Assembly: GCF_002795825.1 (NCBI RefSeq)
Contig: NZ_CP018800.1
Location: 1,178,001 to 1,242,000 of the forward strand
Origin: Mariprofundus ferrinatatus
Lineage (GTDB): Bacteria > Pseudomonadota > Zetaproteobacteria > Mariprofundales > Mariprofundaceae
Direction: 5' to 3'
Length of the DNA: 64,000 nucleotides
The notes below the pieces were generated by a model. That model ran no database searches, was not told the DNA's origin, and was given only the letters and a program-made list of their open reading frames with translations. The stretch's first letter is position 1. Each line of letters starts with the position of its first letter. Below, piece by piece: positions 14,238 through 17,669 of the stretch. A program made the translations under genes and the position numbers.

Positions 14238-15473
14238 ATGAAATTTGATCGCTATTACATCTCATCAGAGCTGAAGAAGAACCTGAAAAGTCTAGGATTT
14301 AAACGACCTACCGACATCCAGTTCAAGGCGATTCCGTCGATTCTGAACGGAGAGGATGTGCTGGCCATTGCTCAGACCGGAACAGGAAAAACGGCAGCCT
14401 TTGCCATTCCGGTGATCGACAAGGTGCATCGCGCCAAGACCAGCAAGCGTAGCCGCGGCATCAAGTGCATCGTCATGGCCCCTACCCGCGAACTGACGCA
14501 GCAGATCGGCCAGGTGTTCGAAACGCTCGCCAACCATACCAAGGTCAAAACCTTTGCGCTTTTCGGCGGTGTTGAGCAGGAGCGACAGATCGCCAGGCTG
14601 CAGGATGGTATCGATATCCTTGTCACCACACCCGGGCGCATGTTCGACCTGATCAATCAGGAGGTGATCCGCCTGCACATGGTTGATACGCTCGTGCTCG
14701 ATGAGGCCGACCACATGCTTGATCTCGGCTTTATCGAGGATATCAAGTACGTGAAGAAGATGCTGACGCGCCCGCACCAGACCCTCTTCTTCTCTGCCAC
14801 CATCAATGATGAGATTCGAAAACTTGCCTACTCGCAGGTAAAGAGTGCCGCCATCCGCATTCAGGTCTCGCCCGAGGACAAGGTTTCCAGGAATGTATCC
14901 CATGCCGTGATGTTCGTTGAGCAGGACGACAAACGCTTCTTTCTTGAGCGACTGCTCAATGAAAACCCTGAGAGTAAAATGATTGTCTTCGTTCGCACCA
15001 AAGTGCGCGCTGAACGCGTTGTAAAGGCCATGGAGCGTGTAGGCATCACTGCTGTGAACATTCATGGTGACAAGGAGCAGAAAGAACGCACAGAGGCAAT
15101 GCAGCAGTTCAGGGATGGAGCGTGTCGCATTATGGTCGCCACCGATGTCAGTGCACGAGGCATCGATATCCCGGATGTGAGCTATGTGATTAATTATGAT
15201 CTTCCTGAAAAGCCTGAAAACTATGTACACCGGGTTGGCCGTACCGGTCGAGGTGTTAACAAAGGAACAGCCATCTCATTTTGCAGCCAGAAAGAGAAAG
15301 CACTGCTTGAAGAGATTCAGGGCTTCCTCAATAAACCGATCGAGGTTCTGAGTATCGGCAAAGAGGATTATGCCGCGACCATCGCGCTTTCACCTGAAGC
15401 GGCTGACCTTAAATCACTTGTCGAAGAACATGACGCATGGCTGAACAAAAAGAGACCAAGGCGCCGGAAGTAG
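14238..15473 (+). CDS. DEAD-box RNA helicase (RhlE-like)
   Basis: 411 residues from ATG 14238, preceded by AAAGAGG; the frame is open to 14133 but MKFDRYYISSELKKNLKSLG is the natural N-terminus. All core motifs are present: Q motif PTDIQFKAIP, Walker A AQTGTGKT, APTRELTQQ, TPGRMFD, DEAD in LVLDEADHML, SAT in FFSATIND, then the second RecA domain with VFVRTKVRAE, ATDVSARGIDIP and HRVGRTGRG. The C-terminal tail is short and basic (NKKRPRRRK), typical of RhlE-type helicases in ribosome assembly or RNA turnover. Monocistronic; I see no terminator downstream. Confidence 0.93.
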   Translation: MKFDRYYISSELKKNLKSLGFKRPTDIQFKAIPSILNGEDVLAIAQTGTGKTAAFAIPVIDKVHRAKTSKRSRGIKCIVMAPTRELTQQIGQVFETLANHTKVKTFALFGGVEQERQIARLQDGIDILVTTPGRMFDLINQEVIRLHMVDTLVLDEADHMLDLGFIEDIKYVKKMLTRPHQTLFFSATINDEIRKLAYSQVKSAAIRIQVSPEDKVSRNVSHAVMFVEQDDKRFFLERLLNENPESKMIVFVRTKVRAERVVKAMERVGITAVNIHGDKEQKERTEAMQQFRDGACRIMVATDVSARGIDIPDVSYVINYDLPEKPENYVHRVGRTGRGVNKGTAISFCSQKEKALLEEIQGFLNKPIEVLSIGKEDYAATIALSPEAADLKSLVEEHDAWLNKKRPRRRK

Positions 15474-15496
15474 CGAGCGGTTAACCTTTACGGAGC

Positions 15497-15928
15497 TTAT
15501 TTATCAGTTCGCAGGTAATCGATGTACTGGGTATCCTCAACCAGAACATGTTCAACCAGAACATGTTCAACCAGAAGATTCTTGATTTTCAATCCCATTT
15601 CAATCCACTCACGACTGAATTCTGTATCCTGAATGTCCTTCAGAATTTGAACAAAGGTTTCGGTGAGTTCTACATGAGCTTGGACATGCGCTTCAGCAGA
15701 AGGGAAACCCTTCTCCTCGAAAAGATCCTCCTCATGTGCAAAATGCGCTACCGCCTCATCGAGCATTTGCATCATAATGTTGAGAACATCCTCTTTTTCA
15801 CGCCTGCTTACGATGGCGTCGTTGAACTCATTCACCCGTTGTACAAACTGTTTATGTTCCGCATCAATCTCCGGATTCGACATGCTGAGTGCATCTGACC
15901 ACGCAATTCTCCATGGTGCCCCTTCCAT
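15497..15928 (-). CDS. Bacteriohemerythrin with a five-residue duplication before the last metal ligands
   Basis: 143 residues from ATG 15928 (AGGAGG upstream; GTG 15931 is too close to it). A single-domain, soluble O2-binding di-iron protein. Expected ligands are visible: H25, H62, E66 (HFAHE), H81 and H85 (HVQAH), and the closing H-x4-D pair at H127/D132. The last helix carries VEHVL twice in a row (residues ~120-129), caused by an exact 15-base duplication at 15539-15568, so H122 copies ligand H127 five residues earlier. Likely role: oxygen storage, delivery or sensing. Convergent with the helicase. Confidence 0.92.
   Translation of the reverse strand: MEGAPWRIAWSDALSMSNPEIDAEHKQFVQRVNEFNDAIVSRREKEDVLNIMMQMLDEAVAHFAHEEDLFEEKGFPSAEAHVQAHVELTETFVQILKDIQDTEFSREWIEMGLKIKNLLVEHVLVEHVLVEDTQYIDYLRTDK
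15539..15568 (-). repeat. 15-bp perfect tandem duplication inside the hemerythrin gene
   Basis: Two exact copies of AACCAGAACATGTTC on the plus strand, followed by a partial third copy (AACCAGAA). Each copy contains the 10-bp palindrome GAACATGTTC. The length is a multiple of three, so the frame is kept. Confidence 0.95.
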
Positions 15929-15954
15929 CACACCTCCTTCAATTCCCTGTGCTT

Positions 15955-15960
15955 AGTATA
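15955..15960 (-). promoter_or_regulatory. Candidate -10 (TATACT) of the hemerythrin gene
   Basis: TATACT on the minus strand, 26 bases before the ATG; about 17 bases further upstream is CTGCTT, a weak -35. The 15929-16076 spacer otherwise holds the divergent leader of the ABC-F gene. Confidence 0.3.
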
Positions 15961-16076
15961 GCAGGAGAGCGTGAGAAAAGCAGCCGCACTTGTATATATC
16001 ATGCCCATCACTAAGCTGCGCCACCCTTCAAGCCATAGGTACACATGGTTAATCCACGCGACAACGGAACTTCATC

Positions 16077-17669
16077 TTGATCTCTACATCCGGTATTACA
16101 ATGCAGTTCGGGGATAAGCCCCTGTTTGAAAACATCTCGGTCAAATTCGGAGATGGCAACCGCTATGGCCTGATTGGCGCAAACGGCTGCGGCAAATCCA
16201 CCCTGATGAAGATTCTCGGTGGGGATCTGGAACCGACTGCGGGCAATGTAATCATCGACCAGCACGAGCGGCTCGGAAAGCTGCGCCAGGATCACTTCGC
16301 ATTCGAAGAGTTCACTGTTCTCGATACCGTGATGATGGGCCATGAGGAGCTCTGGAAGATCAAGCAGGAACGTGATCACCTCTACTCCCAGAGCGAATTG
16401 AGCGAAGAGGATGGCATGCGCGCCGGCGATCTGGAAAGTCACTTCGCCGATCTGGATGGCTACAGTGCGGAACCCAATGCAGGAGACCTGTTGATCAGCA
16501 TGGGCATTCCGGTGGAAAACCACTACAACCTGATGAAATCGATTGCGCCGGGCTGGAAACTGCGCGTGCTGCTGGCACAGGCACTGTTTGGTGACCCGGA
16601 GATCATCCTTCTGGATGAGCCGACCAACAACCTGGATATCAATGCCATCCGCTGGCTTGAGGGGGTGATCAATGCGCGCAACAGCACCATGATCATCATC
16701 TCCCATGACCGCCACTTCCTCAACAGCGTCTGCACCCATATGGCGGATCTTGATTACGGAGAGTTACGCATCTATCCCGGCAATTATGATGAGTACATGA
16801 CAGCTGCATCCCAGGTGCAGCAGAAATTACTCTCAGACAATGCCAAGAAAACCGCACAGATTCAGGAGCTGCAGGCATTCGTCAGCCGCTTCTCGGCCAA
16901 TGCCTCCAAGTCGAGTCAGGCCACATCGCGTGCGAAACAGATCGAAAAGATCAAGCTGGATGAGGTAAAACCTTCGAGCCGCGTGAACCCGTTCATGCGT
17001 TTCGTTCAGGACAAAAAACTTTACCGCAATGCACTCGAACTGAAGGGGCTGAGCAAGGGTTTTGATGACAAACCACTGTTTGAAAATTTTAATCTGATGG
17101 TGCCTGTTGGGGAACGCGTTGCCGTGATCGGCCCCAACGGTATTGGTAAAACCACACTGCTACGCTGTCTTGCGGGTGACCTTGAGCCGACCAGCGGTGA
17201 GATTAAATGGTCTGAAAATGTGAAAATGGGTTATTACGCGCAGGATCACTCCGCAGATTTTTCCGAGGAGATAAGCCTCTTTGACTGGATGGCACAGTGG
17301 AAGAAAAAGGAGCATGGCGAGCAGGAGGTGCGTGGCAACCTTGGCCGCATGCTCTTCTCTCAGAATGAGATCAAGAAGTCGGTCAAGGCGCTCTCAGGCG
17401 GCGAAAAGGGGCGTATGCTTTTCGGAAAATTCATGTTCCTGAACCCCAATGTGCTTCTGCTGGATGAGCCGACCAACCACATGGACATGGAGTTCATCGA
17501 ATCGCTGAACACTGCGCTCGAGAACTACCCGGGCACCCTGATCTTTGTCAGCCATGACCGTGAATTGATCGCCTCAATTGCCACCCGCATCATTGAACTG
17601 ACGCCGGACGGAATTGTCGATTATCACGGCAGCTATGAAGAGTACCTCAGGAGTCAGGGCATCGAATAA
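16077..17669 (+). CDS. ybiT: ABC-F family ATPase, YbiT type
   Basis: 530 residues with a TTG start at 16077, selected because [19 protein letters not shown] aligns with the start of YbiT; ATG 16101 would truncate the first strand. Two ATP-binding cassettes without membrane segments: Walker [10 protein letters not shown] and GPNGIGKTT, Walker [13 protein letters not shown] and [12 protein letters not shown]. The signature of the first cassette is APGWKLR, as in YbiT, and that of the second is LSGGEKGR. The linker between cassettes (~240-310) is charged and helical, as in ribosome-bound ABC-F factors. Family role: ribosome-associated translation factor. Confidence 0.93.

Follow-up and report, generated by a model that had tools for sequence, protein, structure and literature searches.

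Does an exact repeat in the last iron-binding helix of a hemerythrin change its diiron site, or is it an ordinary copying slip that leaves the site as it was? The question is raised by a 64,000-nucleotide stretch of the genome of Mariprofundus ferrinatatus, a marine, probably iron-oxidising bacterium (NZ_CP018800.1, positions 1,178,001 to 1,242,000, hereafter the window), in which an open reading frame on the minus strand at 15500..15928, with an ATG start at 15928 and a stop at 15500, encodes a single-domain hemerythrin of 143 amino acids. A sequence-only reading of this gene had claimed that an exact 15-bp in-frame duplication, which repeats the residues VEHVL just before the final H-x4-D ligand pair, was probably recent, lengthened the last helix (helix D) and so changed the ligand register or length, and could alter the oxygen affinity. 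According to our analysis, the duplication looks both real and recent, the most plausible reading is an ordinary slip in DNA copying, and the iron-binding residues were probably left in place.

The minus-strand codons ...CTT CTG GTT GAA CAT GTT CTG GTT GAA CAT GTT CTG GTT GAG GAT... encode LLVEHVLVEHVLVED and contain a perfect in-frame 15-bp tandem duplication, with GTTGAACATGTTCTG (VEHVL) standing back to back over residues 120-129 with zero mismatches. Read on the coding strand, the first copy (residues 120-124, including H122) occupies 15557..15571 and the second (residues 125-129, including the ligand H127) occupies 15542..15556, both on the minus strand. The earlier numbering, with H122 and H127 five apart before H-x4-D, is right when counted from the ATG at 15928. 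Since ten bases of a third copy continue toward the ligand Asp, the whole array comprises 2.7 copies, forming a perfect 40-bp array of period 15 at 15537..15576 on the minus strand, composed of TTCTGGTTGAACATG twice followed by TTCTGGTTGA. Tandem Repeats Finder (TRF) gave this array a score of 80 at 100% identity, the top of 16 rows in the window, and none of 200 first-order-Markov 64-kb windows reached that score in simulation (maximum 66). The 38-bp core had a single occurrence in the window when up to 3 mismatches were allowed and none in shuffles, while a genome-wide search for a 22-bp core, allowing 2 mismatches, found only two overlapping places, both in the hemerythrin gene. The duplication itself was thus confirmed by the sequence, by TRF, and by the coding-strand reading.

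Reads from the usual sequencing platforms are longer than the 40-bp array, and the residual errors of PacBio assemblies are typically 1-bp insertions or deletions, not exact 15-bp insertions. For these reasons, an assembly or sequencing artefact, in which the second copy would not exist in the organism, is the least probable of the explanations considered, even though the duplication is known here from one assembled genome of the species. If the strain is CP-8, as we infer, a passage of PMC5513912 gives PacBio reads with a mean length of 8,877 bp at 300x, which makes the assembly error named by the sequence-only reading as a possible refutation unlikely. The G+C content of 53% in the genome sample is close to the 54% given for CP-8 in that paper.

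The history of the unit was judged from two alignments, A2 with 48 homologues and A1 with 7 orthologue rows. The assessable set held 52 homologues, obtained from 52 homologue loci by leaving out L075, which stops before the motif, and L092, which is out of frame (leaving 50), and by adding L002 and L006, which A1 contributes beyond A2. The five other A1 rows duplicate loci already counted, L078, which has an internal stop, and the fragment L080 were inspected directly outside A2, and the weaker distant matches L008-L012, L014-L019, and L022-L040 and the fragment L021 lie outside the assessed set. The five extra residues were present in 0 of the 52 assessable homologues. The stretch running from column W108 to column D132 holds 20 residues in 48/48 A2 rows and 7/7 A1 rows, as against 25 in the window protein, and among eight Zetaproteobacterial genes, two of which were partial, none had a period-15 match of at least 7 bases. 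Because no assessable homologue has the extra unit, the duplication is derived, and an ancestral insertion, the other refutation foreseen earlier, was rejected. The two copies are identical, including at synonymous positions. This agrees with the recent event that had been proposed, and the duplication looks recent, with 15 bp being too short for dating.

The same duplication was sought elsewhere with a degenerate DNA pattern for E-H-x3-E-H-x3-E-D, which detects only Glu-His versions. The pattern occurred in 18 of 398 phylum-sample genomes, the window's own included, at 20 places, two of which are this gene read on both strands. Judged by eye after translation, the sequences around the remaining 18 places were not hemerythrin-like, and one resembles an AMP-binding-type enzyme. 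Searches of the open-access literature, which is part of the whole literature, led to work on a P. gingivalis diguanylate cyclase but to none describing a duplication in helix D of a hemerythrin, and the words 'insertion' and 'indel' are absent from PMC4919030.

Short frame-keeping tandem arrays are normal though infrequent in this genome, which consists of one contig of 2,301,665 bases. In 464 kb (the window plus a 400-kb sample), TRF returned 11 rows with a score of at least 50, representing 10 distinct arrays, and nine of these have periods divisible by three. Two arrays outscore that of the hemerythrin gene (375 and 110), and no other array in the 464 kb is both perfect and longer than 2.2 copies. 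Elsewhere in the same genome, a 15-bp unit (GAACCCGTGGCAGCC) is repeated in 20 copies (L101, 18990-19292).

The profile and domain scans used the 144-amino-acid GTG-start version of the protein. The hemerythrin domain was recognized by PF01814 of Pfam (32.6 bits, cut-off 25.3) and by TIGR02481 of NCBIfam (85.6 bits, cut-off 51.75). The NCBIfam bacteriohemerythrin model NF033749 reached 82.3 bits. Because this falls just below its cut-off of 84, the protein was classed under the hemerythrin domain and not under NF033749. The earlier identification is supported to the extent that this is a bacterial hemerythrin-domain protein. The canonical hemerythrin motif is written H-HxxxE-HxxxH-HxxxxD in a passage of PMC9388753, and all seven of its ligands are present. 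They are encoded on the minus strand by the codons of H25 (15854..15856), H62 (15743..15745) with the bridging E66 (15731..15733) in H62-x3-E66, H81 (15686..15688) and H85 (15674..15676) in H81-x3-H85, and, in helix D, H127 (15548..15550) with the bridging D132 (15533..15535) in H127-x4-D132. Every one of these residues is the same in 48/48 aligned homologues.

By sequence, the closest solved structure is DcrH-Hr (2avk, E-value 1.8e-11). Two AlphaFold runs with the same 49 sequences were made, one for the window protein and one for a control, the orthologue L043 from Mariprofundus sp. KV. The window model had a mean predicted local distance difference test score (pLDDT) of 83.0 and a predicted template-modelling score (pTM) of 0.76, with a four-helix-bundle fold retained in the prediction, and the control model had values of 89.0 and 0.82. 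Foldseek matched the window model to 2avk with an E-value of 1.1e-5 and template-modelling scores of 0.82/0.88. In VIA-align, the window model was superposed on 2avk with Z 19.8 and a root-mean-square deviation (rmsd) of 1.8 over 131 aligned residues, and the control with Z 19.8 and an rmsd of 1.9 over 130. The models suggest that the window protein retains the four-helix bundle of hemerythrins, with two irons presumably bound by H25, H62, E66, H81, H85, H127, and D132.

Helix D covers residues 105-141 in the window model and 106-137 in that of L043, that is, 37 versus 32 residues, and the modelling thus agrees with the claim that five residues were added to the last helix. There are 22 residues from the helix start to the ligand His in the window model and 17 in the control, while the distance from the ligand Asp to the helix end is 9 residues in both. 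The five extra residues are therefore placed N-terminal to the ligand pair H127-x4-D132. The end register of the window model on 2avk pairs H127 with H118, if there is no intervening gap, and the end offsets put D132 and the control D128 both at chain residue 123, if there is no gap near the end. H122 would stand at the position five residues ahead of the ligand His, which is D, Q, N, E, S, or T in 40/48 relatives. Since this site is mostly polar, H122 is probably at the surface and an altered ligand set is unlikely. With H-x4-D and the other ligands intact, and with H127/D132 kept by the model, the case for the proposed change of ligand register is weaker than had been claimed, and a changed ligand set or oxygen affinity is not supported by the sequence evidence.

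A route to the extra unit is suggested by the single-copy form of the gene. Removal of one unit gives CTTCTGGTTGAACATGTTCTGGTTGAG, a reconstruction in which the 10-bp TTCTGGTTGA appears twice, 15 bp apart, and this pair is the longest direct repeat at a spacing of 3-60 within the single-copy gene. Two marks of slippage were thus found, a flanking direct repeat in the reconstructed single-copy form and the absence of the extra unit from relatives. A mutation to Val probably primed the slippage site, in that the substitution would have created the direct repeat. Strand slippage between its two copies would then recently have added exactly one 15-bp unit, in frame. The five added residues would enter helix D on the N-terminal side of H127-x4-D132 and make it about one and a half turns longer, with H122 exposed at the surface and outside the ligand set. 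The expected outcome would be a longer helix D whose effect lies between near-neutral and mildly destabilising, in an accessory gene. We regard a recent slippage duplication in a single-domain hemerythrin, with ligands in place and no new chemistry, as the best reading of the locus, and hold it with reasonable, not full, confidence.

Several points weigh against this reading, beginning with the DNA. Repeats of at least 10 bp at a spacing of 3-60 arose by chance in 82 of 2000 Markov sequences and in 70 of 2000 codon-order shuffles. With chance alone giving such a repeat in about 4% of cases, finding it at the duplication is suggestive but far from conclusive. Furthermore, the Val of LVED, the source of the direct repeat, is found in 0 of the eight Zetaproteobacterial genes compared, and for this reason the single-copy site is a reconstruction. 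In the protein, the helix D blocks at 101-130 have pLDDT values of 74-75, as against 86-88 in the L043 control, and the gap is smaller in the other helices, with mostly 88-91 in the window model and 90-95 in the control. The conserved subfamily segment W-I-E-x-G-L-x-I-K has a profile score of +24.3 where it natively sits. If the helix runs unbroken from an anchor at H127/D132, the score drops to -6.9, a value reached by 26% of shuffles. Since the segment fits only its own place, an unbroken helix should disturb the packing. Likewise, the profile sum over 108-133 is higher in the N-anchored register (35.7 = 24.3 + 11.4) than in the C-anchored one (24.7 = -6.9 + 31.6). AlphaFold, which put the extra five residues before H127-x4-D132, is no independent test of the register, because the input alignment had already paired H127/D132 with the family ligands. 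Presumably, a bulge would be needed for the ligand pair and the conserved N-terminal half to keep their positions together.

The higher N-anchored sum speaks for an alternative register, in which H122 would act as the ligand His and H127 would replace the bridging Asp, or both registers would interchange, yielding a His-for-Asp site with altered O2 or peroxide chemistry. Steps of five residues separate H122 from H127 and H127 from D132, with H-x4-H having the same spacing as H-x4-D, which makes either register conceivable, and a ligand swap by a neighbouring His is documented in a passage of PMC3947700 on the engineered DcrH I119H. The N-anchored register, however, forfeits the invariant Asp of 48/48 relatives and the conserved Tyr that follows it, with a downstream score of 11.4 versus 31.6, and it displaces the C-terminal end by five positions. 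D132 also stays in place in the AlphaFold model and in its alignment to the PDB structure, although the input alignment had that register. On balance, the alternative register is very unlikely. A helix D with two interchangeable registers, H122/H127 and H127/D132, which would form a natural switchable or His-for-Asp diiron site, is a still fainter prospect. If true, it would imply changed O2 or peroxide reactivity and would parallel, in a natural bacterial hemerythrin, the engineered DcrH I119H.

The low confidence of helix D and the displacement of the conserved segment by five residues make a partial or full loss of function possible. The duplication might accordingly have crippled the protein, in that helix D could not hold both halves, iron binding would fail, and a dispensable gene would start to decay. 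Besides the drop in model confidence and the W-I-E-x-G-L segment that a continuous helix displaces, the distribution of the gene can be cited for this view. In a genus sample of 23 genomes (13 less than 99% complete and 10 at 99%), a match at an E-value of 6e-30 or better was found in 7, the window's own included, and G004, G007, and G011 lack a close copy although they are 99% complete. Conversely, the gene is kept in 7 of the 10 nearly complete genomes, and many of the others are incomplete assemblies. Judging from these sequences, the gene seems common in the genus, yet it can be missing from some genomes. In genome G001 of the same genus, a single additional base near residue 36 splits the reading frame of the orthologue (L006, 1501-1915, minus strand). 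This frameshift may be real or a sequencing error, and the single extra base would be a possible error of the latter kind if G001 is CP-5, which a passage of PMC5513912 gives as sequenced with PacBio only.

A second, divergent hemerythrin-type gene was observed in the same genome at about 164.4-164.7 kb (L041, 1471-1923, minus strand; 150 amino acids, with a TTG start as listed). Its ligand set looks full, which would also fit a dispensable first gene. Near it, at L041 2490-3248, lies an open reading frame rich in repeats that we take to be of the GGxGxDxLxG-type calcium-binding-like kind.

Crippling is opposed by the state of the gene itself, in which the ligands, the start codon, the Shine-Dalgarno-like site, and the frame are intact, and by the predicted fold, which matches DcrH-Hr as well as that of the orthologue does. 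The rest of the protein is likewise not fast-evolving. A tree was built from 28 of the 48 A2 homologues, L002, L006 (3′ part only), and the window row, with 20 distant rows omitted and the bootstrap not settled. With the insert omitted, the end branch of the window row was 0.32, shorter than the six sister-row paths (0.37-0.85), and the fork separating it was weakly supported (89/58). Outside the insert, the window row thus appears not to be fast-evolving, which agrees with constraint until recently. Taken together, the crippling of the protein is unlikely, though a more serious rival than the other alternatives. In the same tree, the copy of M. ferrooxydans PV-1 (L007/L060), one of the seven genomes of the genus with a match, lies outside the seven-row Zetaproteobacterial clade, among copies of Gallionella, Sideroxydans, and other Nitrosomonadales. 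The single-domain subfamily (L043-L067) is common to Mariprofundus and these Nitrosomonadales, and the placement of PV-1 hints at transfer between iron oxidisers. A passage of PMC3770913 considers that hemerythrins might sense or store oxygen in iron oxidisers, and offers no proof.

Promoter and terminator scans of 15400-16150 found nothing. The ATG at 15928 was preferred as start over a GTG one codon earlier because a Shine-Dalgarno-like AAGGAGG, read directly from the sequence at 15933..15939 on the minus strand, lies four bases upstream of it. The hemerythrin gene is convergent with a DEAD-box helicase gene that ends at 15473. On its other side, an ABC-transporter-type gene, listed from 16077, runs divergently. 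An antisense open reading frame of 116 amino acids on the plus strand, containing MFNQNMFNQ, was seen in the list of open reading frames, and there were no grounds for calling it a gene. None of six neighbouring window genes matched the flanks of the orthologue loci compared (about 1.5 kb on each side, some less), and gene order is therefore uninformative here. The hemerythrin gene had no match in a phage collection of 50,697 records at E-values up to 1e-5, and 15 of 72,556 plasmid records had one, all below 60% identity and none spanning 80% of the query. Single-protein scans of viral contigs and genome contigs returned no relative. With no phage match and only weak and partial plasmid matches, a mobile or phage origin of the gene was rejected.

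The locus would offer a clean case of an in-frame slippage duplication in a metal-ligand helix, seemingly at an early stage of its history. Should the protein still function, it would indicate how large a length change the ligand helix of a hemerythrin can bear; if it fails, the gene would mark the start of accessory gene loss in a probable iron oxidiser. In neither case does the duplication imply a new system.

Among known systems, the hemerythrin domain of DcrH from Desulfovibrio vulgaris (2avk, 2awc, 3waq, 3whn) is the top match to the window protein in both sequence and structure. DcrH-Hr is a domain of a chemotaxis receptor according to a passage of PMC9388753, whereas the window protein is a single domain and its helix D has five extra residues before the last ligand pair. 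The single-domain hemerythrins of Mariprofundus, Gallionella, Sideroxydans, and their kin belong to the same subfamily, with 32-60% identity in the first 25 homologue rows. The first 25 homologue loci come from Zetaproteobacteria, Mariprofundus, Gallionella/Gallionellaceae, Sideroxydans, Sideroxyarcus, Nitrosomonadales, and beta-, gamma-, or other proteobacteria, and, unlike the window protein, none of the assessable hemerythrins of this type carries the insertion. The bacteriohemerythrin structures 4xpx and 4xpw, presumably from Methylococcus, have the hemerythrin fold in common with it (Z 17.7-17.9), but the identity is about 20% and the sequence match covers only the first two thirds. In the engineered DcrH-Hr I119H, too, a His has been added near the ligand His of helix D. 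According to a passage of PMC3947700, this added His adjoins the ligand His and replaces it on Fe1 in the crystal. In the window protein, by contrast, H122 sits five residues before the ligand His and is probably exposed at the surface.
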